A DNA stretch of 21,882 nucleotides, from positions 1 through 21,882 of the IMG/VR virus record IMGVR_UViG_3300034062_003817; one strand, 5' to 3'. The position numbers and the translations under genes are program-made. The stretch is from a virus. Under the pieces are notes generated by a model, which searched no databases, was not told the origin of the DNA, and saw nothing but the letters and a program-made list of their open reading frames with translations. Positions 1,891 through 17,141 of this stretch are shown here, one piece after another. Numbering within the stretch: position 1 is the first letter of the stretch; each line of letters opens with the position of its first letter.

Positions 1891-2163
1891 ATGGACGCTG
1901 GCGAACTGGACATTGAAGACCTTCCGCCGAAGGCTCTTCGGAAGTTGATCCGCAGCATGATGGCCAAGGTCGGCAAGCCTCGCGATGCGAAGTCCGACGA
2001 GGACGCCGACGAGGAGCGTGAGGCTCTCGCGGACCTCAAGGAAGAGACCAAAGGCAAGGCCCCAAAGATCCCGGTGATCGAGGACGATCTCCCGCCCGAG
2101 CTTCGTGCTGACGAGGACGACGAGGACGAGACGCCCAAGAAGGCGAAGCGAAAGGGCAAGTAA
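1891..2163 (+). CDS. Acidic 90-aa protein with DDLPP motifs
   Basis: The ATG at 1891 is preferred over the in-frame GTG at 1873 because AAGGAG (1878-1883) is 7 bases upstream of the ATG. After a short helical N-terminus (LDIEDLPPKALRKLIRSM), the protein is dominated by Asp/Glu and ends in a Lys/Arg patch. The motifs IEDLPPKAL and IEDDLPPEL share the DDLP core that recurs many times in the next protein. Its stop overlaps the next start (TAATG), so the two are probably made together. It may be a chaperone, scaffold-like partner or cargo adaptor for the large protein; this is an inference from composition and context. Confidence 0.7.
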   Translation: MDAGELDIEDLPPKALRKLIRSMMAKVGKPRDAKSDEDADEEREALADLKEETKGKAPKIPVIEDDLPPELRADEDDEDETPKKAKRKGK

Positions 2164-5100
2164 TGAGCGTCACGGAAGCAATTCTTCGTCGCGTTCGCGA
2201 GGCGTCCCAGCGGACAGCCGCTGCTGGCGCCATGCCCGCGCGTGGCTTTGTGCCTAAGCAGCCCACGCCGACCGTAGATCTCACACTTCGTCGAAACCTG
2301 ATCGAAAAGGCGAGGCGGGGCGAGCCGCTGTCTGATCGCGAGATGGAGATTGTCCGCAGGGCCTCGCTCGAGCAGCAGGCTGGCCTCCAGGAACCTTTAG
2401 GCGATGTGGCCGCACAGGCTGAGGCCCCCGCCGTTGCAGTCCCCGCCGCCAACGCAGACGCCGTTCCCCAAGGGGCCGTCGCCGTTATGGGCGATGGCGG
2501 CAAGTTCTATCTGGTAGACGCCGGAGGGAACGCGCTCGAAGAGGTTGCGCAGGTCCGGCGGAACATCTACTCCCTGCCCAACGGCACCATGCTGCAACTG
2601 GCCGACGACGGTGCAGGATTCGAGGTGCTGCCCGGTGACCTGACTACGACCAGCGGCCGTGCGGCCGACAACTTGGAGGCGTCCGGCGTCGAGCTGAGCC
2701 CGACAGGCGCCAGGGGCAGGGGCCGCCAGAAGAAGGGGCCGTCGAAGATCGACAAGCTGGCCGACGACATTCGCCAAGCGACCACTCCGGCTGCTGGCGA
2801 AGAGGCCCTCGCCAACACCAAGGCAATCCGCGCACGGATTGACGCTCTACAGCCCGAAGAGCTGGATGCGCTCCTGTCGCACCCGTCGCTGGCGGAAGGC
2901 ATTGAGTCTGTGGCTGCGAAGAGAGACCCCGCTGCCCGGGAGGCCGCCATCAGCCGGGCTCGAGAGCGGCTCAAGGCTGTGCGCAACGAACCGTCTACTA
3001 CTGATCGCGCAGCCGGGCAACTCGTGGAAGCGAGTCAGGCACGCGATGCCGCTCGCGCGCCAGCCACAGCCAACCCGGCAGCGCCGACCGCCAGGGTCGC
3101 TTTCGAGCAAGCCCGCGATGCTGCGAGGTCATTGCTTCCCGCTGGGGATTTCAACGCAGCCGCTGCGGCCTACAACGGGCTCTCTCCTGATGCCCGCGCT
3201 GCACTGCTTGCCAGTTCTCGGGACGGCACGGCTAAGGCCATCCTCGATGCTGCCGACCTTTTTGTTCGCCGCCAGAACCCAGACCTTGACGGCGATGCCT
3301 TGATGGTGGCACGCACAAAAATCCAGCGTGACCTTAAGGCGGGCGCTGCGTTGCCGGACGAACTGGTCCAGAGCATTTCGGCGCCGACGAACGAGCTTGA
3401 CGCCCTGTTTATCAATCTTAACGGTGCCATGAAGGCTGGGGACACGGAGGCCGCAGATGCCCTGCGCGCACAAATCCAGGCCGCCGCACAGTTGGACCCC
3501 GAAGCCGCCCGTCAGGCCCAGCGGTCTTATCTCGGCCGCCGGGCCCTTGCTGATGGAATCGGCCGCTCAATGCAGGCCGACCGGATTTCCACAGAGGCCG
3601 CTGCGCTCCGCTCTGCCGAGATCGCTCCTTCGCCCCGCCCTGTGCTTGCCCCTGGAGCCCGCCAGCCCGAAGTGCAGGCGTTCGACCGACAGCCCAACGA
3701 GATGCCCACCGACGCAGACGAGGCCCGCTCGCTTGGTCGCGAGGCTGCACTGGAGCGGGCCGACAGGGCCCCGCTGGGCGGCATGGCAGATGACGCTCGC
3801 CGGGAAGTCTTTGGCGACGATCTGCCCGTCTTCTTGCGAGGGAGGGATCGCAATCCTCCGCTGGAGACTCGCAGGCGAAACGAGCGGCCGGACACTCGCG
3901 ACGTCGATTCCGTCGCCAAGGCCGAGCAGTTGGAGCAGGAGGTTGCTCAGGCTCAGCAGGCCGTTGATGCCGCCGCTGACCCGGCGGCTCGCGTGGCCGC
4001 CCTGGCCCGACTCCAGAAAGCCTACTCCGCGATTGACAAGGCATACCCGCCGCGATTGGTCAACGACAGGACGGGCGAGGTCATCGCTCGCGTTACGCCA
4101 GCGCAGCGTCGCGGAGAGGGAATCCCGAAGGGCTATCGCCTCGAGACCGGCCGCCGGGCGTACGCCGACAGCAGCGTCAACAAGGCCAGCTCGCAGGACA
4201 CCCTTGAAGACTTGTTCTTTGCCACCACCGGCTTCCGTCGGCGGGGCCGCAGGGCCATTTCAAACACCAACGCCGATGGCATGAGCGCCCAGGATCTCGG
4301 CGCCTCGCTGGACGATGCTCGCCTGGAGTTTGGCGACGACGTCTCTGAGTTTATTGACGACATCGACGGGGATTTCTCGTTCCGCGACGAGGTCAACGAA
4401 CTGCTCGATACCCCGCCAGCGGGCCGCAAGCAGCAGGTCAGGGGAGGCCAGCCGCAGCAGAGCCGGGTGAGGGGTTCGCTTGAGCGAGGGTTTGGCGGCC
4501 GCAATCCGCTTGAATCTGGCATGACCGCAGAGGAGGTTGCCCGCGAGGTCGCATCTCGCGTTCGCGGCCTGCGTCCCGGCACGGCAACCTACGAAATGAT
4601 GGTCGAGAGGTTCGCCAAGGCCGTGCAAGACACGTATGGCACTCCCCGCAACAATCCGATCGGCGCCATGGAGGCTCGAGGGGCTGCTCCCCGAACCTCC
4701 CGGCCCGAAGAGCCCGACGCGACTGTCATTCTGGACAGCAGCTCTACCGCCTCCGAAGCCGCAGAGGCTTACGCCAGGGGATTCCAGGCAGCGAAAAAGG
4801 CTGGCAAGTCCGATGACGAGGCTGTGGCGGCAGGCAACGCCGCTCGCAAGCAGTGGGGCCAAGAACTCAAGGCCGCCAGGACCGGCACGCTTCCGCCAGT
4901 CTCGGGCGACGACCTGCCCGCGACATCCGGCTCCCTCGACGATGCCGCCAGCACTCCCGCCGCCACTCCCGAAGATGCCAAACTGGATGCCTCTGCGACC
5001 GACCTTGGGGCCGTCGAGGGGGATTTGCCTGCACCTAGCCCGGCCGCCCAAAAGCTCGATGCTGAGGCCATGGCGGAAATCCAGGCTCGGGCCGATGTGG

Positions 5101-5900
5101 TCCGCGACGAAGCCTACGAGGCTGGCATTGCCAATGGTCTGTCAAAGCGTAAGGCCCAAGACGAGGCCAATGCCTTGCGGAAGGCATACGTAGACGAGCA
5201 GGTGGAGCGAGCCAAGCGGGCTGGTGCATCCGCCCCGCAAGCGGCCGCTGGCGACCTGCCGCCGCCGAAGGGCGACGTTGACGCTGCCCCAGCCGAATCA
5301 GCCCAGGCCGTCCCGGATCCTGAGATCGGTCGCGTCGATCCGGCCGACCTTCCTCCTGCCGCCGATGACCTTCCGCCACCAGCCGGTGACGTTGACGCAC
5401 CAGCCGCCACGCCGGACGCCGACACACCGCCGAAGGCTGGCGATGACCTCCCGGCCCCAGAGGGCGACCTTGAGGCCGACAGGCCCAGGGCCGAAGGCGA
5501 CACGCCCCCGCGAGGCAGGGACGGCGACGAGGGTGGCAGGCCCGCGCCAGAGTCGCTCCTGCGCAGGATCCGCAATGCGGGGTGGAAGTGGGGCTCCCGC
5601 GCCGCGATTGGCGGCGGTGTCCTCTGGGGTCTCGGCAGGCTCGCTGGCACCTCGAACGCCCCTGGCGGCCCGCACGTACCTCCACCCGGTGCCGGTGGTG
5701 GTGGCGGCGGCGGCGGCAATGGCCCTCCAGGCGGCCTCCCTGTGCCCTTCCCTCCCGGCGGGCAACCAGGGGCCGGAGACCCGGTGGCCGCAGCAGAGGC
5801 CGAGATCGAAGCTGCCTTGGAGAGCCTGAGGCGTGGCGAGAACCTCACGAGCCGACCCCCTCAGTACCAGACCTTCCAGCAATACAACCAGTTCGGTTGA
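2163..5900 (+). CDS. Giant Ala-rich virion protein with DDLP repeats, 1245 aa
   Basis: ATG 2163 overlaps the previous TAA by one base and has AAAGGG upstream. The protein is Ala/Arg/Asp-rich with long helical stretches separated by disordered linkers. Two similar helical units occur at about residues 869-895 and 984-1006 (AY..G...G.S...A...N..RK). Residues ~915-1110 carry a degenerate array of (G/D)DLP(A/P)P and GDVD motifs, with another DDLP near 551. A weak hydrophobic segment (1143-1160) precedes a poly-Gly/Pro stretch, and the C-terminus is Gln/Tyr-rich. Size, lack of enzyme motifs and the neighbouring large and small helical proteins suggest an ejected internal virion protein; the family is not recognised. 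Confidence 0.75.
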   Translation: MSVTEAILRRVREASQRTAAAGAMPARGFVPKQPTPTVDLTLRRNLIEKARRGEPLSDREMEIVRRASLEQQAGLQEPLGDVAAQAEAPAVAVPAANADAVPQGAVAVMGDGGKFYLVDAGGNALEEVAQVRRNIYSLPNGTMLQLADDGAGFEVLPGDLTTTSGRAADNLEASGVELSPTGARGRGRQKKGPSKIDKLADDIRQATTPAAGEEALANTKAIRARIDALQPEELDALLSHPSLAEGIESVAAKRDPAAREAAISRARERLKAVRNEPSTTDRAAGQLVEASQARDAARAPATANPAAPTARVAFEQARDAARSLLPAGDFNAAAAAYNGLSPDARAALLASSRDGTAKAILDAADLFVRRQNPDLDGDALMVARTKIQRDLKAGAALPDELVQSISAPTNELDALFINLNGAMKAGDTEAADALRAQIQAAAQLDPEAARQAQRSYLGRRALADGIGRSMQADRISTEAAALRSAEIAPSPRPVLAPGARQPEVQAFDRQPNEMPTDADEARSLGREAALERADRAPLGGMADDARREVFGDDLPVFLRGRDRNPPLETRRRNERPDTRDVDSVAKAEQLEQEVAQAQQAVDAAADPAARVAALARLQKAYSAIDKAYPPRLVNDRTGEVIARVTPAQRRGEGIPKGYRLETGRRAYADSSVNKASSQDTLEDLFFATTGFRRRGRRAISNTNADGMSAQDLGASLDDARLEFGDDVSEFIDDIDGDFSFRDEVNELLDTPPAGRKQQVRGGQPQQSRVRGSLERGFGGRNPLESGMTAEEVAREVASRVRGLRPGTATYEMMVERFAKAVQDTYGTPRNNPIGAMEARGAAPRTSRPEEPDATVILDSSSTASEAAEAYARGFQAAKKAGKSDDEAVAAGNAARKQWGQELKAARTGTLPPVSGDDLPATSGSLDDAASTPAATPEDAKLDASATDLGAVEGDLPAPSPAAQKLDAEAMAEIQARADVVRDEAYEAGIANGLSKRKAQDEANALRKAYVDEQVERAKRAGASAPQAAAGDLPPPKGDVDAAPAESAQAVPDPEIGRVDPADLPPAADDLPPPAGDVDAPAATPDADTPPKAGDDLPAPEGDLEADRPRAEGDTPPRGRDGDEGGRPAPESLLRRIRNAGWKWGSRAAIGGGVLWGLGRLAGTSNAPGGPHVPPPGAGGGGGGGGNGPPGGLPVPFPPGGQPGAGDPVAAAEAEIEAALESLRRGENLTSRPPQYQTFQQYNQFG

Positions 5901-7305: not shown

Positions 7306-10300
7306 ATGAGCCTGTTCGCAGACGACATCTTCGGGCAGGCTGTCGGCCCCGCCACGCGACGGCGGAAGGCCGCTGGCCCCGCTCCGTTGTTTGGCGATGT
7401 GTTCGGCGGCGTGCCTCCCGACCAGGAGGAAGTCAGCCCCGAGTTGCAGGCGTCTGTCCTGGGTGAACTGGGCGAACTGACCGGCGGTACGCTGTCTCGC
7501 GTAGGTGACGCACTGGCCATGCCGGGCGACTACTTTCGCGGGCTGCTGGCCGGGAGTCCTGGCGAGCGGGTGACGGGTCGTGAACTGCTGCGCGACATGG
7601 GTCTGGCTGGGCAGGAAGACACGTGGGGCAACTTCCTGTCGGGCCTGGCCGTTGAGGTGGGAACCGACCCCTTGGCCATGCTAAGTGGCCCGGCCAAGGC
7701 GTTGACTCCCGCAGGCCGTGCTGCCCAGAAACTCGGTTTGCTGGACAATGCCCCAACCGCCGCCACCCGCAAGGCCATTCAGAGCGGGGCACTGGCGACT
7801 GCGGACGCACGGAAGGCTTTGCCGACCGTTGTGCAGCGCACTGCCGATAAGTTGGAGGCCACTGGCCGAACGCTCAGCACGCTTGATCCGGCCACTGTGG
7901 GCAGGCCGCTATACGGCACTCGCACCGCTCGCCGGGCCATCACGCTCGACGACACGATCAAGTATGCCGACAGCCCGCAAGCGGCCGAGCGTGAGGCCAG
8001 GGCGCTGCTGGGGGACACGGAGTTCAACCGCATCCGCAACCAGCGGCTGGCCGACAGTTTCGGCATCGGCTTGCCATTCCAGAACCCTAGTATCACGGGC
8101 GATTTCCTGGGCAAGGGCTTTGGCGACAACTACGCCGACGTCTTGGACACGCTTGGGCAAGCCTACCGCTGGAGCCCCGTTGGGCGGCAAATGTCGGCCC
8201 TGTTCGACAACAAGGTCGGCGGTGCCGTCGATGCCGAAGATCAACTCACCAACATTGCTTCCTTTAGGGCCAGGGAGCAGGCAGGTGGCGTAGCCGATAG
8301 CGCACACACCCTGCTGCTCTCGCGGGTGCAGCAATCGCACCCTGAGGTCTTCTCGGAGGACGGCAACCGCATCCTGGGTCGCTACCTCGAGGGGCCAGCG
8401 GCGATGCGGCCCGGCGACGAGGCGTACGTGCAGGCCAGGCCCGAACTGCTCAACTACGCCAACTGGTGGAAGAACAATCGGCAGGATTACCTGACCGGCG
8501 CCCGGGAACTCGGCCTCACGGCAGAGCAACTGGCCGACAAGTACGGCATCGAGTATCTGCCCCGCCGGGCGGATGCGGTGCTGGAGATGGAGTCTCGCCG
8601 CAACCGCCAACTGAACAACGCACTCTCGACGTTCACGGGCGACATGCTCCGCCGCACGGACGCCATGCAGGTGCCCGGTGGTCGCGAAACCATCCTGCGG
8701 CTGTCTCGCGACCCGGTGGTGGCGGGCGGGAAGCGGACGGCCACGACCGACACTGCCGCCGCCGTCCATATCCTCAAGGAACTCCAGCCGCTGGTGCCGC
8801 CAGGCGGACCAGACATCACGCTGGAGCAGGCCGAGAAGATTGCTCGCGTGCTGCACAAGTTGCCGTCAGAGGCACTCGACCGAGCGCCGCTGTTTGGGCA
8901 GCACCCGACCGAAATGATCGGCTCGTACATGCGCAACCGCAACGAGAGCATGGCGACGGCCAAGACGCTGTACGACTCCCTGGCGACGTTCGCTGAGGAC
9001 GGTCTCTACACCGACATCCCGGGCGGTCGGCACATCTCCATGGAGGACGCGATCAAGCGTCTGGGATTGCGGTCATACGACGATTCTGCCGACGATCTCA
9101 TGGACATCGTCGGTGATGGCGCTGCCGCGCGTGCCGTCAACGCTCGCCCCTTGTCTGGCGCCTCCAAGCAGATGCGTGAGCGCATCGCTGGGCTGCGGGG
9201 CATAGCCGACCCAGACCAAGTCAAACTGTCTGAAATCAGCATTCCAGAGGAGCATGTCAACCGGCTGCTCAGGGCACGGGACGTCTTCTCGGTGGACGAG
9301 GCTTCTGGCTCGCTGCTCCAGCAGCTCGACCACATCACCGCCGCCTGGAAAGGCTCAATCCTCACCTGGCCTGCCCGGGCGGTGCGCGATCTCTATAGCG
9401 GCGCCACCAGCAACTGGCTGGAGGGCGCCCTCGACCGCCGGTCTGTGCGGGCCGCCAGGGGGTTGCTGTCATCGGGGCCGGGCGACCAGACGTTCCTGGC
9501 GGAACTCCAGTCCATCCCTCGCTACCAGGGCATGGGGGCCGACGCCGTCAACCAGTTCTATTCGGACCTCGCAGGCACCGGGCTCGTCGCAGGCGGCTCG
9601 TCCACGGACATTGGCCTTGGACTCACTGGCAGGCGGGCCCTTGACGCCGCCCTGCCGGGAGCCACGCCGGTCAACGCTGGCACGATCCTTGGCGAGTTAG
9701 CCCCGCAGTCCGGCCGCACGTGGACCGAGTTTGCCCGAGACTTCGGCACGTGGCGGTCTAGCCTCAAGCCGCTGGCCGAGACGAAGAACCCCATCCTCCG
9801 TGCGGGCGAGCAGATGAACTCGCTGACGGACGGCATCAATCGCCTGAGCGGTTACCTTGCCTTGCTCAAGCAGGGCTTCACGCCGGAGGCTGCGGCCAGG
9901 GCGATGAAGCGGGCCCACGTGGACTATACGAGCCTTAGCGGCTTCGAGCGCAACGTACTCCGCCGGGTTTTTCCTTGGTACTCCTACCAGAGCAGGATTT
10001 TCGGGGAGGTGTTGCGGCAACTGTCCGAGCAACCCGGCGGCCGGTACGGGCAACTGGTGCGAGCCACCGAGTCAGTGCAGGACGATGTGGACGACGACGC
10101 CTACATCACCAGCGACCTTCGTTCGCAGTTTGCCGTGCCGATCCCGGAGGAGTGGGGCGGCGTTCCGGCACCGGGCACGCAGACCTACCTCACCGACCTC
10201 GACTTCCCAGGCTTCGATCAGATCAACATGCTCGAGACTCCCGGCACGGTCTCAGGTGCCGCAACCGGCACGATGCGGCAGGTGGGCATGCAATTGCATC

Positions 10301-10821
10301 CCGGGCTGCGGACTCTGGCGGAACTCATGTCGGGCCAGGACTTCTTTACCCGCCGCCCGGTTGGCGAAAGCACCAGCACGCTGGATTCCATTCTGCGATC
10401 TGTCACGGGCAACCCAGACGCCAACGTCCCGGCCATCATCGAGAAGCCCGTCGAGATGATGCCGTTCGTCGGTCGCCCGCTATATGCCGCACGCTCGCTC
10501 CTGGACGATCGCGGTGGGCAGTCGCTTGCCCAGCGAGCCATCAAGACCAGCCTCAACGCCACGACCGGCCTGAAGGTGCGAGACAAGACGCAGGAAGACA
10601 TCCTCCGCGATCAGGTGCGGCAGCTCCAGGAAAGCGTGGACCCTTACACCCGCGAGTTCACGACGAGCTACATCCCCGAGAACCTCCAGCCCTACGTGCC
10701 CAACTGGGCGCTCGACCGCATGGCCGTCTCCCGGTCGCTCGACCGCGAGCGTCGGGCGGCTCGCCGCAAGCCGCGACGCAAAGAGCGTGAACGCTCGGCC
10801 ACCGGCCAGCTATTCGAGTAG
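7306..10821 (+). CDS. Large internal virion-type protein, 1171 aa (LPD38-like motif)
   Basis: ATG 7306 follows the previous stop by 6 bases, with CAGGGG upstream. Most of the protein is helical and unassigned. Residues ~834-905 hold a conserved-looking segment with NSLTDGINRLSGY, then VDYTSLSGFERNVLRR and VFPWYSYQSR. This DYxxLxxFERxxxRRxxPWY pattern recalls the large polyvalent protein domain LPD38 found in giant phage virion or polyvalent proteins; the assignment is from memory, so moderate. The C-terminus is a basic tail (RRAARRKPRRKERER), possibly DNA-binding. Its 3' end overlaps the convergent integrase by 12 bases. Likely a genome-ejection or DNA-entry protein, comparable in place and size to podovirus internal core proteins. 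Confidence 0.78.
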   Translation: MSLFADDIFGQAVGPATRRRKAAGPAPLFGDVFGGVPPDQEEVSPELQASVLGELGELTGGTLSRVGDALAMPGDYFRGLLAGSPGERVTGRELLRDMGLAGQEDTWGNFLSGLAVEVGTDPLAMLSGPAKALTPAGRAAQKLGLLDNAPTAATRKAIQSGALATADARKALPTVVQRTADKLEATGRTLSTLDPATVGRPLYGTRTARRAITLDDTIKYADSPQAAEREARALLGDTEFNRIRNQRLADSFGIGLPFQNPSITGDFLGKGFGDNYADVLDTLGQAYRWSPVGRQMSALFDNKVGGAVDAEDQLTNIASFRAREQAGGVADSAHTLLLSRVQQSHPEVFSEDGNRILGRYLEGPAAMRPGDEAYVQARPELLNYANWWKNNRQDYLTGARELGLTAEQLADKYGIEYLPRRADAVLEMESRRNRQLNNALSTFTGDMLRRTDAMQVPGGRETILRLSRDPVVAGGKRTATTDTAAAVHILKELQPLVPPGGPDITLEQAEKIARVLHKLPSEALDRAPLFGQHPTEMIGSYMRNRNESMATAKTLYDSLATFAEDGLYTDIPGGRHISMEDAIKRLGLRSYDDSADDLMDIVGDGAAARAVNARPLSGASKQMRERIAGLRGIADPDQVKLSEISIPEEHVNRLLRARDVFSVDEASGSLLQQLDHITAAWKGSILTWPARAVRDLYSGATSNWLEGALDRRSVRAARGLLSSGPGDQTFLAELQSIPRYQGMGADAVNQFYSDLAGTGLVAGGSSTDIGLGLTGRRALDAALPGATPVNAGTILGELAPQSGRTWTEFARDFGTWRSSLKPLAETKNPILRAGEQMNSLTDGINRLSGYLALLKQGFTPEAAARAMKRAHVDYTSLSGFERNVLRRVFPWYSYQSRIFGEVLRQLSEQPGGRYGQLVRATESVQDDVDDDAYITSDLRSQFAVPIPEEWGGVPAPGTQTYLTDLDFPGFDQINMLETPGTVSGAATGTMRQVGMQLHPGLRTLAELMSGQDFFTRRPVGESTSTLDSILRSVTGNPDANVPAIIEKPVEMMPFVGRPLYAARSLLDDRGGQSLAQRAIKTSLNATTGLKVRDKTQEDILRDQVRQLQESVDPYTREFTTSYIPENLQPYVPNWALDRMAVSRSLDRERRAARRKPRRKERERSATGQLFE

Positions 10822-11625
10822 CACAGGCGTCTGCGGAATCTGTCCTCGCACCTGGGACCAGTCGATATAGAACCGCTCGGCCAGCCCGACCGTCTTGTGT
10901 CCCAAGTGCAGGCGAGCCTTGCCGGGCTGGAGGATCTCCACGTGCGTGGCCCCCGACCTCCTGAGCCACTTGCTGGACCCGGGCAGGTCAAGCCGCTTGA
11001 GGAATCGCCGCAGCCGCCGCCACCCCGACTCCTTGACCATTGCCCAGCCCAGCACTCGCCCATCGGGAGAGCCCTCCAGCATTGCAGTGACTGCCGCCAT
11101 GCAGGCCGGAGTCAACTTTTTTGACAACGGCACGCCGGTCTTCCCCTGCGTCCAGGCAACCGTGTCGCCAAAGAAATCCGACCGCCGGAGGTTCCACAAG
11201 TCCTCCTGGCGAGCCCCTGTCTCGTACCCGAGCAGCAGCCAGCACCTCAGGAAAACCCCGAGCCTTGCCCCCGATCGCAGCAAAATCCCGTCGTCTTGGA
11301 AAGTGGCCTTGACGGCCGTACAGCACTGCTCTAAAGTCCACGCCCGAACTGGTGGCCTCGACACTTTGATCTTGACGAGACCACGCGGCATGGAATCCAC
11401 TAGCCCACGTTCATAAGCAAAACGCCACAGGCTCAGGATGAGCACTCTCTCGGGAGCAACGGTCACGGAGCGGACCTCCGATAGCCTCTTGCGGAGGTAT
11501 CGGTTGCACCACTCCACGCTGACCCAGCGGCACCCGGCAGCAGCCGCTCGGACTCGCCGAGCGTAGGACTGGTTCACGATTCGCTCGCGGAGATACGCCT
11601 CCGCCACCCTTGGAAAAGACTTCAT
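10810..11625 (-). CDS. int: Tyrosine recombinase (phage integrase), 271 aa
   Basis: This is the only convincing gene on the - strand. The start is taken at the ATG reading leftward from 11625 (MKSFPRVAEAYL); an ATG 51 bases further out is less likely. An N-terminal SAM-like core-binding domain (1-85) precedes a catalytic domain. Visible catalytic residues are Arg139 in ETGARQEDL, Lys162 in TQGKTG, Arg222 in KWLRRSGATHVE, His243 in LGHKT and the nucleophile Tyr253 in ERFYIDW. The usual HxxR box reads KxxR here. It would catalyse site-specific integration and excision, making the phage temperate. Its tail overlaps the 1171-aa gene by 12 bases, and its start shares CATG with the divergent exonuclease frame. 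No attP core was identified. Confidence 0.93.
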   Translation of the reverse strand: MKSFPRVAEAYLRERIVNQSYARRVRAAAAGCRWVSVEWCNRYLRKRLSEVRSVTVAPERVLILSLWRFAYERGLVDSMPRGLVKIKVSRPPVRAWTLEQCCTAVKATFQDDGILLRSGARLGVFLRCWLLLGYETGARQEDLWNLRRSDFFGDTVAWTQGKTGVPLSKKLTPACMAAVTAMLEGSPDGRVLGWAMVKESGWRRLRRFLKRLDLPGSSKWLRRSGATHVEILQPGKARLHLGHKTVGLAERFYIDWSQVRGQIPQTPVLLE

Positions 11626-12595
11626 GTTTCTCGCCACCCAAAGCAATGGAGTGCAAGAAACCGAACAGGTGCGCACGGATGGTCAGGCCAGCACAGCCGA
11701 TACGATCGGCACGGCTTTCGGCTTGAACATCACGAACGTCCTGTCCGGAGGCACACCATCGCTCCTTTCTGTTGATCTTCGGCGGGGAGAGCCTAACGCC
11801 GACTATCACGCTGACCAGACGTACAGGTCATGCAGCACGATCAAAACATTCCTTGACTCGCCGCTCCTGTACCACCAGCGGTACATCGCCAAGACGCTCC
11901 CGCCGTTCAGCAGCCCGGCCATGTCGCACGGCACGATGCTGCATTCGTGGCTGGAGCATGGCGACGACTTCCTTGAGTCGCTGGTGGTGCCTCCAACTGA
12001 AAGGCTAACCGCGACGGGCCTGCTGGGCAAAGATGCCGAGAAATGGGCCGAAAACGAGGCTCCTCCCGGCAGCACGCTCATTTCGCCCAAGGAGAAGGCC
12101 CAGCTTCTCGCTGAGGTGGCGGCCATCCGGCGTCACCCGGCCTGCGTCGAGATGCTCGACCAGATCGTCGATCGCGAGGCCAGCGTCCGCTGGGTCTCGC
12201 CGGACGGGCACTACCTCAAGTGCCGCTACGACGCCCGCACTCCAGACTTCTGGATCGACCTCAAGACGACCAGCGAGCAGGACATCCTGGCTGGCTTCTG
12301 GAGTCCGGTGCTGAAGTACCGATACCACCTGCAAGATGCGTGGTATCGCTGCGGCATGGAGGCGTGTGGCCTAGAGCCCGCCCCGCTGCGGTTCATCGTT
12401 GTCAGCACATCGCTGCCGCACGACTGCCAAGTCGTGACGCTTCCCGACGCCATCGTTGCGGAAGGTCGGCGGCTCATGGACCGAGCGCTCGCTGACTTGC
12501 GAGTGCGAGAAGACCTCGACTGGTGGTTGCCGGACACGCACGGCGAGGTTGTGGAGTTGTCTTTTCCGGCTCATGTCATGGGGAGGATTTCGTGA
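11624..12595 (+). CDS. RecB-like PD-(D/E)XK exonuclease (DUF3799 / RecE type)
   Basis: The frame matches phage exonucleases of the DUF3799 / exodeoxyribonuclease VIII group: ADYHADQTYRSCSTIKTFL, GTMLHSW with His107, Asp203 in KCRYDARTPDF, IDLKTT with Asp212 and Lys214, and QDAWY (Gln237, Tyr241), the H-D-DxK-QxxxY pattern of RecB-family nucleases. It would resect double-stranded ends for the ERF annealing protein encoded next. The start is doubtful: ATG 11624 overlaps the divergent integrase start, and the first ~55 residues look unlike the family and have a less GC-biased third position. A later GTG (11669) or TTG (11723) is possible. The stop overlaps the next start as GTGA. Confidence 0.88.
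   Translation: MFLATQSNGVQETEQVRTDGQASTADTIGTAFGLNITNVLSGGTPSLLSVDLRRGEPNADYHADQTYRSCSTIKTFLDSPLLYHQRYIAKTLPPFSSPAMSHGTMLHSWLEHGDDFLESLVVPPTERLTATGLLGKDAEKWAENEAPPGSTLISPKEKAQLLAEVAAIRRHPACVEMLDQIVDREASVRWVSPDGHYLKCRYDARTPDFWIDLKTTSEQDILAGFWSPVLKYRYHLQDAWYRCGMEACGLEPAPLRFIVVSTSLPHDCQVVTLPDAIVAEGRRLMDRALADLRVREDLDWWLPDTHGEVVELSFPAHVMGRIS
11696..11710. promoter_or_regulatory. Perfect inverted repeat, candidate operator
   Basis: GCCGAT-ACG-ATCGGC is a perfect 6-base inverted repeat with a 3-base spacer. It lies where the int/exo divergent promoters should be if the exonuclease starts later than ATG 11624. A 6-base palindrome can arise by chance in DNA of this composition, so the operator role is only a suggestion. 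Confidence 0.25.
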
Positions 12596-15162: not shown

Positions 15163-15567
15163 ATGGGCAAGGGACTGTCTGATGGACGTTACATCTGTGA
15201 GATCGGCATGTCGCTGGCTGTGGCGCAACTACTGCGCTCCGGCTATCAAGTCGCTCTCCCGATCATTGATGACGGCTATGACATCTTGGCCTTGGATGGT
15301 CGCCGCTGCTGGCGGATCCAAGTCAAGGCAACGGCTCGCACTTCCGGGAAGAACCGATCCCGGGTGCGCATATCGCGTGGCGGCCGCAAGCAGTTGCGAT
15401 ATGACGCGACTCAGGTCGATGCGTTCGTTATCACGAACATATCGACCGGGCTACTGCTCTGCGTGCCGTTTGCCAAGGCAGCGGGCCGCAGTTGGATCAA
15501 CCTTGCCATTGGCGAACAGTACGCCGACTTCAACCTCCTGAGGAGAGTTAAGCCGAACAAGCACTGA
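15163..15567 (+). CDS. Small PD-(D/E)XK endonuclease (I-Ssp6803I-like), 134 aa
   Basis: ATG 15163 follows GAGAGGCGG, 8 bases after the helicase stop. The protein has the PD-(D/E)XK fold pattern: Glu13 in ICEIGMSLAVAQLL, Asp40 in DDGYDILALDG and RIQVKAT (Gln53, Lys55). Small proteins with this QxK layout resemble the group I intron homing endonuclease I-Ssp6803I family (Pfam PDDEXK_5) and Holliday-junction-resolvase-like phage proteins. It is the last gene before the 295-base gap at 15568-15862. No group I intron has been shown next to it, so the homing role is only a family analogy. A DNA-processing nuclease is likely; its target is unknown. Confidence 0.78.
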   Translation: MGKGLSDGRYICEIGMSLAVAQLLRSGYQVALPIIDDGYDILALDGRRCWRIQVKATARTSGKNRSRVRISRGGRKQLRYDATQVDAFVITNISTGLLLCVPFAKAAGRSWINLAIGEQYADFNLLRRVKPNKH

Positions 15568-15862
15568 CAGACAACTTAAACGGCTGCGTGGGTTGGGAAA
15601 ACCTCTGGCACGCAGACGCATGACCCACGACCAGAAGGGATCGTGACGAAAGTGGGTACGGCCAGCCGCAAGCGACAGGGCCAAGTCACGCGGGCAGCAG
15701 GATGCTCGATAAGCAGGTCGCAAGCCTCCGCCCCTGCGGCAAGGAGGACACCCGAAAGCGTCCTAACGAGCAGCGGACAGGGTGGCGGCTAACCCCAGCA
15801 TCACGCTGGGGATTAGTCGCCGTCCACCCATTGCGAGCCTTCAAGCAACAGACAGGGCCTCC
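15568..15862 (+). ncRNA. Candidate structured RNA or leader, unknown class (intergenic gap)
   Basis: About 295 bases without a supported gene. It is densely self-complementary. CTGCGTG (15584-15590) pairs with CACGCAG (15609-15615), enclosing GGTT/AACC. ACCCAC (15623-15628) can pair with GTGGGT (15652-15657), but also with CGTGGGT (15587-15593), giving alternative folds. CCTCC (15725-15729) pairs with GGAGG (15743-15747). A very long hairpin spans 15780-15829. GACAGGG occurs three times (15674, 15776, 15851). I tried tRNA, tmRNA, RNase P, SRP and group I/II intron patterns and none fits. It could be a standalone RNA, an untranslated leader for the following nuclease genes, or an origin/attachment region. 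No poly-T terminator is seen. Confidence 0.35.
15780..15829 (+). repeat. Long imperfect hairpin with 20 pairs
   Basis: GGGTGG (15780-15785) pairs with CCACCC (15824-15829), CGG (15786-15788) with CCG (15820-15822), CTAA/TTAG surrounds a bulged A, and CCCCAGC (15793-15799) pairs with GCTGGGG (15805-15811) around the loop ATCAC. No T-run follows, so it is not a typical intrinsic terminator. It ends 33 bases before the start at 15863 and is the strongest element of the structured gap. Confidence 0.75.
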
Positions 15863-16159
15863 ATGACACAGGACTTAGCGCAACAGGAAGAAGGGGTGGT
15901 TGATCAGATGAAAGGGTTTTTGTCACTGGCGATTGGAAAGTTGATGGCATCCAACGACGCTCTGGCAACGGCTGGCCGATTGGCTGGACGCCTCCGGCGG
16001 CGGCGGCCGGTCTTCGTTGAGGAAATCACTGACGTTCGCGACCCGGGCGGATCGCCGCTGATTCGGTGGTCGGTGATCTTGCAGTCCCGCGAAGACGCCC
16101 TGGAGTTTGACGGTGCGGTCCTGCGTCTAGCCCGAGCAGTCTCGGAGGAGGAGGAGTGA
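15863..16159 (+). CDS. Hypothetical protein, 98 aa
   Basis: ATG 15863 is preferred (AGGG upstream at 15854-15857). A longer in-frame reading from 15782 would run through the big hairpin, and ATG 15908 is an internal alternative. Residues 1-35 are polar helical (MTQDLAQQEEGVVDQ...), the middle is Ala/Leu/Arg-rich with RLRRRRPVFVEE, and the end is acidic helical (EDALEFDGAVLRLARAVSEE). No family is recognised. The stop overlaps the GTG start of the HNH-nuclease gene (GTGA), so the two are likely co-translated, and the protein may support that nuclease. Confidence 0.5.
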   Translation: MTQDLAQQEEGVVDQMKGFLSLAIGKLMASNDALATAGRLAGRLRRRRPVFVEEITDVRDPGGSPLIRWSVILQSREDALEFDGAVLRLARAVSEEEE

Positions 16160-16848
16160 GCCATGCTGTGCTATCTGCCTTTGCTGACAAGTTCCAGTTT
16201 TGTGCGGTGTGCTGGAGCCGAGAAAGGCTTCACATTCACCATCTCGTCGGAGGCGCCGGAAGGAAGCACGACCGCAGAAACCTTCTGCGTCTGTGCATGT
16301 GGTGCCATCACGGTCTTCACTCAGGCGGGGTGCATAACCTCACGCCAGGGATGTGCCTTGCTGCCAAGCGTGAGGTGGATGACTCCCACTACGACCCGAC
16401 GTTTCTCGCCAGCCTGCGGCACCGCAGGCATCTTGGCTACGGCCCGGAGGTGTATCCGGGACGCGTTCTCTGGCATCGCAGCCGCAATGGGATTCCGCAG
16501 GAGCTGATCGACATGGCAATCAACAGTCGCCGCAAGGGCAAGGTCGGGGAGCTCGAGGCCGCCAGTGAGCTGAATCGCTTGCTGCCGAAGTCGTTGGCTC
16601 GTCGGGCACAGCAGCACAGCGGCACCGAGAGTGCGTCCGACCTGATTGCTCCTGGCCTCCCGGGCCTGTGGCTGGAGGTCAAGCGGGTGCAAAAGCTGAA
16701 CCTCACTGAGGTGATGGATAAGTCGAGGGAGCAGTGCGGGGCGCTTGTGCCTGTGGTGCTTCATCGCAAGAACGACGCGGAATGGCTGGTGACATTTCCG
16801 CTTGAGCAGATCCAGCAGTTCGTGCAGCAGATTCAAGGAGGGATGTGA
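16156..16848 (+). CDS. HNH plus PD-(D/E)XK double-nuclease fusion, 230 aa
   Basis: GTG 16156 follows a GGAGGAGGAGGA tract and overlaps the previous stop (GTGA). The N-terminal ~60 residues contain Cys16/Cys19, His26/His28/His29, Asn42, Cys47/Cys50 and His51/His55 (HIHHLVGG, NLLRLCMWCHHGLHSGG), an HNH nuclease layout with two zinc cysteine pairs. Residues ~125-215 match phage PD-(D/E)XK / resolvase-like proteins: RRKGKVGELEAASELNRL, SASDLIAPGLPG (Asp162) and LWLEVKRVQKLNL (Glu174, Lys176). One reading frame joins two nuclease folds that are usually separate. It probably cuts or resolves DNA during replication or packaging; partner strands and specificity are unknown. Confidence 0.8.
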   Translation: MSHAVLSAFADKFQFCAVCWSRERLHIHHLVGGAGRKHDRRNLLRLCMWCHHGLHSGGVHNLTPGMCLAAKREVDDSHYDPTFLASLRHRRHLGYGPEVYPGRVLWHRSRNGIPQELIDMAINSRRKGKVGELEAASELNRLLPKSLARRAQQHSGTESASDLIAPGLPGLWLEVKRVQKLNLTEVMDKSREQCGALVPVVLHRKNDAEWLVTFPLEQIQQFVQQIQGGM

Positions 16849-17141
16849 TGCCTAAGAATCATGAGTTTCTCATCAACAAGGTGCGATGGCTGTGGCGATA
16901 CGCCCGGCTTCGTGGGTCTGCGGACGGCTATGCGTTCGTCAAGACGCCGAAGACTCCAAGCACGCCTGAGCGAATCCTGATCGACGAGCGACTGTCTGGC
17001 CGCAAGCGGCTTGAAATCGAGATCCACGAATTCCTTCATGCGGCAAATCCCACGCATGACGAGGAGCATGTCACCCAGCAGGGGCGCGACCTGTCTCGCA
17101 TCCTGTGGGCGTTGGGCTACCGGCCCAAGGAGGGGCAATGA
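16848..17141 (+). CDS. Mini HExxH metallopeptidase-like protein, 97 aa
   Basis: ATG 16848 overlaps the previous stop by one base (TGATG) and has GGAGGG upstream. The zinc-peptidase signature HEFLH (60-64) lies in RLEIEIHEFLHAANP, followed by acidic DEEHV, where Glu73 may be the third ligand. The C-terminal LSRILWALGYR recalls small phage HExxH proteins of SprT/ImmA-like size in which a short tail follows the motif. It lacks room for a larger protease domain. It may cleave a small protein, such as a host regulator, or be a non-catalytic scaffold. The next gene overlaps its stop (ATGA). Confidence 0.68.
   Translation: MPKNHEFLINKVRWLWRYARLRGSADGYAFVKTPKTPSTPERILIDERLSGRKRLEIEIHEFLHAANPTHDEEHVTQQGRDLSRILWALGYRPKEGQ

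Follow-up and report, generated by a model that had tools for sequence, protein, structure and literature searches.

The window analysed here is a contig of 21,882 nt (21.9 kb) from an uncultured phage in IMG/VR. Within it, a coding sequence that stops at 15567 is separated from the next ATG, at 15863, by a stretch that holds no plausible gene. The upstream gene encodes a PD-(D/E)XK endonuclease. The stretch is followed by a small ORF and then by the gene for an HNH + PDDEXK (RusA-like) nuclease (Table 1), the product of which also gave Pfam HNH and PDDEXK_15 matches below the cut-off. The first-pass annotation had placed the region between two nuclease genes, which is correct on the upstream side; on the downstream side the small ORF comes first and the second nuclease gene starts only at 16156. 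A 98-aa protein with an HEFLHA zincin-like motif is encoded at 16845-17141, and proteins of 1245 and 1171 aa, both very large, at 2163-5900 and 7306-10821; none of the three has a Pfam or PHROG match. A possible temperate lifestyle is suggested by a tyrosine-recombinase-like integrase encoded on the minus strand at 10810-11676 (phrog_1, E = 2.2e-10).

Table 1. Genes, RNA elements and predicted helices at the locus and at related loci (positions refer to the window unless a contig is named)
Feature	Position	Strand	Remark
Upstream gene, PD-(D/E)XK endonuclease (PDDEXK_5)	15163-15567	+	PF11645, E = 1.4e-9
Type I structured RNA, whole conserved element	15580-15858	+	Steep drop in conservation on both sides, 13-27 homologues
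P1	15584-15615 (15584-15590 with 15609-15615)	+	Two-sided changes at 3 of 7 pairs; 98.9% paired
P2, small hairpin inside P1	15591-15594 with 15600-15603	+	Without compensatory change
H3, pseudoknot from the P1 loop	15604-15635 (15604-15608 with 15631-15635)	+	2 compensated pairs
H4	15623-15657 (ACCCAC 15623-15628 with GTGGGT 15652-15657)	+	5 of 6 pairs compensated
H5	15642-15690 (15642-15647 with 15685-15690)	+	5 of 6 pairs compensated; 100% of cells paired
H6	15660-15682 (GGCC 15660-15663 with GGCC 15679-15682)	+	2 of 4 compensated; 95.9% paired
H7	15672-15721 (GCGAC 15672-15676 with GTCGC 15717-15721)	+	3 of 5 compensated; 100% paired
H8 hairpin	15691-15708	+	3 of 6 pairs compensated
Kissing loop	15697-15737 (H8 loop 15697-15701 with H9 loop 15733-15737)	+	3 of 5 compensated; 96.8% paired
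H9 hairpin	15725-15747 (15725-15729 with 15743-15747; 15730-15732 with 15738-15740)	+	4 of 8 compensated
H10 hairpin	15749-15784 (CACCC 15749-15753 with GGGTG 15780-15784)	+	95-99% paired; 1 compensated pair
Direct repeat, copy A (GAGCAGCGGACAGGG)	15768-15782	+	Co-evolves with copy B
H11 long hairpin, 20 pairs (4+9+7)	15780-15829	+	98.5% paired; 5 compensated pairs
Direct repeat, copy B (AAGCAACAGACAGGG)	15843-15857	+	3' end of the element; nothing conserved beyond
Downstream 98-aa ORF	15863-16159	+	Without Pfam or PHROG match
HNH + PDDEXK (RusA-like) nuclease gene	16156-16848	+	phrog_244, E = 1.2e-12
Type II RNA	L011:3334-3597	+	Equivalent place in about 30 related phages
Type II core	L158:3120-3180	-	Acidobacteria contig; near Shedu SduA gene (L158:1530-2846)
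Type II core	L159:4307-4367	+	Acidobacteria contig
Type II core	L164:1501-1558	+	Acidobacteria contig; upstream of ArdC anti-restriction gene (L164:2047-3057)

Homologous loci on about 30 contigs were gathered through the neighbouring proteins and a motif from the region, and further related phages were added through the HNH protein. Outside 15580-15858 the sequences are unrelated or nearly so, which trims the element, referred to below as the type I RNA, from the originally proposed extent of 15568-15862. No conserved reading frame runs through the region: stop codons interrupt nearly every frame of nearly every homologue, and the homologues differ by insertions and deletions of 1-4 nt. These results bear out the earlier view that the stretch is free of genes and speak against a protein-coding reading. 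The covariance model R1 gave the RNA of the window a score of 316.6 bits. Identity between the window and L008 was 89.6% for the RNA, as opposed to 51% for the adjacent PDDEXK protein; these uncultured freshwater phages hold the RNA more constant than its protein neighbours. A single copy was present in each of nine contigs searched whole. Synteny indicated that the HNH + PDDEXK gene is linked to the RNA in every type I locus long enough to judge, and this linkage is kept despite upstream rearrangement (L024/L036 and L030). In place of the 98-aa ORF of the window, other phages carry unrelated small ORFs (two or more).

The folding energy of the region (z = -2.18 on the plus strand, with 7 of 200 shuffles equally good, and z = -1.88 on the minus strand) is weak evidence by itself and not decisive. 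An unsupervised scan of the MAFFT alignment returned as its top helix 15642-15647/15685-15690 (H5), with five covarying pairs and no mismatch. Among 25 distinct sequences, 97.9% of the cells of the full structure of 80 proposed base pairs were paired, and 35 of the 80 pairs had compensatory changes, with 116 cells showing changes on both sides. Shuffled controls averaged 12 pairs and 23 cells with two-sided changes, and sliding the partner by 1-3 columns left 35-40% of cells paired and 3-9 compensated pairs; the counted helices were partly picked from the same sequences, a bias that these controls limit and do not remove. The alignment used for counting had been fitted to a simpler nested model, R1, and because H3, H4, H7 and the kissing loop are absent from that structure their support is independent of the fit. 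Consistent with transcription of the plus strand, H11 contains one invariant G-U pair, H8 has a G-U pair in 16 of 25 sequences, and a TTCG tetraloop caps H11 in several members (L008-type sequences); on these grounds we take the plus strand to be the RNA strand. Overall, covariation shows that 15580-15858 specifies a real structured RNA of about 280 nt, under strong selection on both structure and sequence. The dense base pairing noticed at first reading is thus that of a conserved plus-strand RNA, and the comparison of homologous loci, which had been proposed as the way to check it, was decisive.

In the predicted fold five helices interlock in series (P1xH3xH4xH5xH7), accompanied by a kissing loop and a 3' domain that includes a long hairpin. 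H4 interlocks with both H3 and H5, H5 interlocks with H4 and H7, and H7 crosses H5 and H6. Individual variants follow these pairings: in H3, TCTGG:CCAGA is replaced by TTTGG:CCAAA in L030/L034, and the L068 version of H7 is GAGTC/GACTC. A long-range helix proposed by RNAalifold (15716-15723/15831-15839) was rejected, as it is broken in L068, L056 and L069, all of which keep H7; in L068 and L056 H7 is itself compensated. The ACCCAC segment at 15623-15628 had been suggested to switch between two partners. Both pairings can be drawn in the window (with 15588-15593 and with 15652-15657). In the upstream one, four of the six pairs are each broken in 4-5 of the 25 sequences, and its bases at 15588-15593 belong to the covarying P1, so this switch is unsupported, and the covariation in H4 points to 15652-15657 as the true partner.

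The first-pass annotation also listed a hairpin of about 20 pairs, which is present as H11, and three copies of GACAGGG. All three copies exist (15674, 15776 and 15851), although they are not one feature: the first belongs to H6/H7, and only the other two lie in a pair of co-evolving direct repeats. In the 3' domain, H10 has an additional inner pairing (GTCC 15760-15763 with GGAC 15775-15778) and cannot form together with the outer part of H11 (H11b, 15780-15783/15826-15829). Two partners are available to GGGTG at 15780-15784. All five of its bases can form H10 with CACCC at 15749-15753, and the first four can instead join ACCC at 15826-15829 in H11. Both pairings are conserved (95-98%), and both keep pace with one shared change, which gives GGGCG/CGCCC in L030 and L034. 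GGGTG may alternate between two partners, or one of the pairings may be a by-product of a repeated unit; resting on a single evolutionary event, the two are not distinguishable. The earlier suggestion of alternative folds may thus hold in a different place, as conserved competing helices supported by one evolutionary change.

The two 15-nt repeats agree with each other within genomes at 224 of 290 letters (20 distinct pairs). Permuting the pairs gave a mean of 166 and a maximum of 195 agreeing letters, and none of 5000 permutations reached the observed value, indicating that copies A and B evolve in concert. Where they differ, nearly all differences are a G in A and an A in B. We found no partner for the repeats inside the RNA that was consistent across sequences, no complementary target in nearby phage DNA of the homologous loci, and in three contigs neither targets above the level of a reversed-pattern control nor further copies.

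Searching the whole window against Rfam 15 at the gathering threshold gave no match, and relaxed searches gave only chance-level matches (E up to 10 in 15500-15920 and up to 5 in five homologues). ARAGORN found 0 tRNA or tmRNA genes and Rfam had no match to either. The initial impression that the region resembles no tRNA, tmRNA, RNase P, SRP RNA or intron was therefore confirmed. No relative appears in the open papers on ornate RNAs that were searched (e.g. PMC12286853), which describe other families; most of the subscription literature lay outside this search. With respect to Rfam 15 and these papers the family is new, while its mode of action may be one that is known already. Neither the type I RNA nor the type II RNA described below was found by blastn in cultured phages (INPHARED). 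Pattern searches of about 85,000 bacterial genomes gave no type I match, and a model search of 297 Acidobacteriota genomes, run without a positive control, likewise gave none.

Several known systems share some of its features. The HK022 put RNAs provide a phage precedent for RNA-based antitermination. Like put, the type I RNA is a phage RNA within an operon and would act independently of the gene that follows; put consists of two simple hairpins of about 70 nt, whereas the type I RNA is four times larger and has interlocked pseudoknots. The HEARO and OMEGA RNAs are likewise structured RNAs shortly upstream of an HNH nuclease gene. However, the type I RNA has no HEARO match, its nuclease is HNH + PDDEXK (RusA-like) without RuvC, and no guide segment such as those of HEARO/OMEGA RNA was recognised in it. 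GOLLD and ROOL are ornate large RNAs of phages and prophages (PMC12286853). The type I RNA resembles them in being large, rich in pseudoknots, phage-associated, present in lake metagenomes and without an established function. It differs in its length of about 280 nt (GOLLD and ROOL are several times longer), in its location within a recombination operon and in the lack of a match to their models.

Related phages that lack the type I RNA have another conserved element of 260-285 nt at the same position, which we call the type II RNA. In its proposed structure 97.5% of cells are paired and 19 of 52 pairs are compensated. None of the loci tested has both types, and the covariance models of the two do not match across, including pieces that cover most of two phage contigs. 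Either of two unrelated families of small ORFs may follow both types. The two lack detectable sequence homology. Their layouts agree in that the loop of a 5' hairpin pairs with a segment downstream, a second helix crosses a long one and a hairpin sits between them, and the corresponding joint holds a short GGGCC(A/G)A motif; this shared plan makes common descent possible. In L137 and L139 a similar GGGAGTCGGTC hairpin region lies upstream of the HNH gene and is neither type I nor obviously type II; it is possibly a third RNA type.

The type II RNA has a much wider distribution than type I. Wider searches relied on a core model, R2. A pattern search located the core in two Acidobacteria MAG contigs, a model search located it in a third Acidobacteriota genome, and it also occurs in phages without the HNH gene (L167, L178, L180, L181, L183, L193 and L200), whose translations, when read, indicated terminase, ERF, RNase H-like or endonuclease VII-like genes nearby. 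In these unrelated phages and in the ArdC-bearing element, genes on the same strand mostly follow close behind, and in some cases (L164, L183 and L193) the RNA stands at the start of a transcription unit divergent from the upstream genes. Type II had no match in Rfam, and no credible match to its core was found in plasmids.

We tentatively favor, as the most likely reading, a cis-acting intercistronic or leader RNA of phage DNA-metabolism operons. The RNA would be transcribed within the polycistronic mRNA of recombination and DNA-metabolism genes and would control the genes behind it. A protein, the transcribing polymerase or a ligand could recognise the RNA through its knotted 5' core (P1 to H9), and the 3' domain, in which GGGTG pairs with CACCC (H10) or with ACCC (H11), could switch state beside the next ribosome-binding site. 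This rating rests on tight spacing, on the lack of promoter and terminator, on nearby same-strand starts and on the type II RNAs at the heads of divergent units. In the window the RNA starts 12 nt past the PDDEXK stop codon and ends 5 nt ahead of the small ORF, and in L030/L034 it starts only 2-5 nt past the upstream stop; a promoter of its own could fit only within the upstream gene. A search for sigma-70-like promoters around the RNA gave none, and no terminator-like site stands directly after it. The RNA usually ends 5-65 nt ahead of a same-strand start codon, with some of these distances resting on an automatic choice of start; such placement is weak evidence, because any RNA gene in a packed operon would sit so. 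Several results count against a cis role: the gene directly downstream is not conserved, neither a U-tract terminator nor consistent sequestration of a ribosome-binding site was seen, and in L158 an opposite-strand gene follows the type II-like RNA. The concerted evolution of repeats A and B is the main observation that cis action leaves unaccounted for. Since the first gene behind the RNA varies, operon-level control, for example put-like antitermination, is likelier than a riboswitch for one enzyme. The same variability, among DNA-metabolism genes without a common metabolite, makes it unlikely that the element is a riboswitch in which a 5' aptamer senses a ligand and a 3' expression platform responds. 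The knotted core and the conserved, mutually exclusive H10 and H11b would suit such a device, but the lack of a terminator and of consistent ribosome-site sequestration speaks against it.

The main rival, possible and less probable than cis control, is a trans-acting noncoding RNA, excised from or transcribed within the operon and working as an RNA or RNA-protein particle, i.e. as a scaffold, a decoy or a partner of a phage or host protein, as has been supposed for GOLLD and ROOL. Sharp boundaries, a single copy per phage, conservation whichever gene comes next, a compact fold with many tertiary contacts and the filling of the same place by another ornate RNA without detectable sequence homology all agree with it. 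A trans-acting RNA would, on the other hand, have to do without a promoter or terminator of its own that we could find, and in nearly every locus the genes behind it point the same way and a start codon lies close by. We consider it quite unlikely that the element is, or derives from, a ribozyme that cuts or processes the polycistronic transcript, such as a relative of group I introns. H5 and H7 enclose H8 in the order of the group I core (P3-P7-P3-P8-P7), all three helices covary, AUAAGCAGGUC occupies the place expected of the AUAAG-like J8/7 joining region, and type II too has two crossing helices, one of them long, with a hairpin between them. Yet only 24 nt lie between H5 and H7, leaving no P4-P6 domain, the strand expected to form P4 pairs upstream instead, in H4, P1 has no conserved U-G splice pair, and the element lies between complete genes, with no interrupted gene and no exons; Rfam gave no intron or ribozyme match at E up to 10. 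Group I intron identity itself was rejected, as the topology is alike and the tests that define membership fail. A DNA-level element (a replication origin or a packaging or recombination site), acting as a folded single strand with the repeats as protein-binding sites, we regard as very unlikely. Its position in a recombination gene cluster and the two co-evolving direct repeats flanking the long hairpin are what such a site might look like, but the compensation includes many G-U states on the plus strand, no GC-skew extreme falls at the RNA in two whole or nearly whole related phage contigs, and three contigs have no further copies of the repeats.

Returning to cis control, a broader version is that types I and II are two distant branches of one hitherto undescribed superfamily of ornate RNAs, positioned by phages and integrated mobile elements ahead of DNA-metabolism, nuclease and anti-restriction genes and exerting operon-level control by a new RNA mechanism in which repeats A and B would be paired binding sites; we consider this doubtful. 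The type I RNA represents a new class in phages known only from metagenomes; its pseudoknots interlock in an unusual chain, and dozens of compensatory changes back this chain and the kissing loop. One place in these phages is occupied by one of two RNAs without detectable homology, the second of which is also found in unrelated phages and in Acidobacteria contigs, and this occupancy and spread point to a general phage function carried by RNA. The most likely job of the RNA is control of the phage DNA-repair genes behind it, and the defined helices specify exact mutations that make its function in the phage testable.
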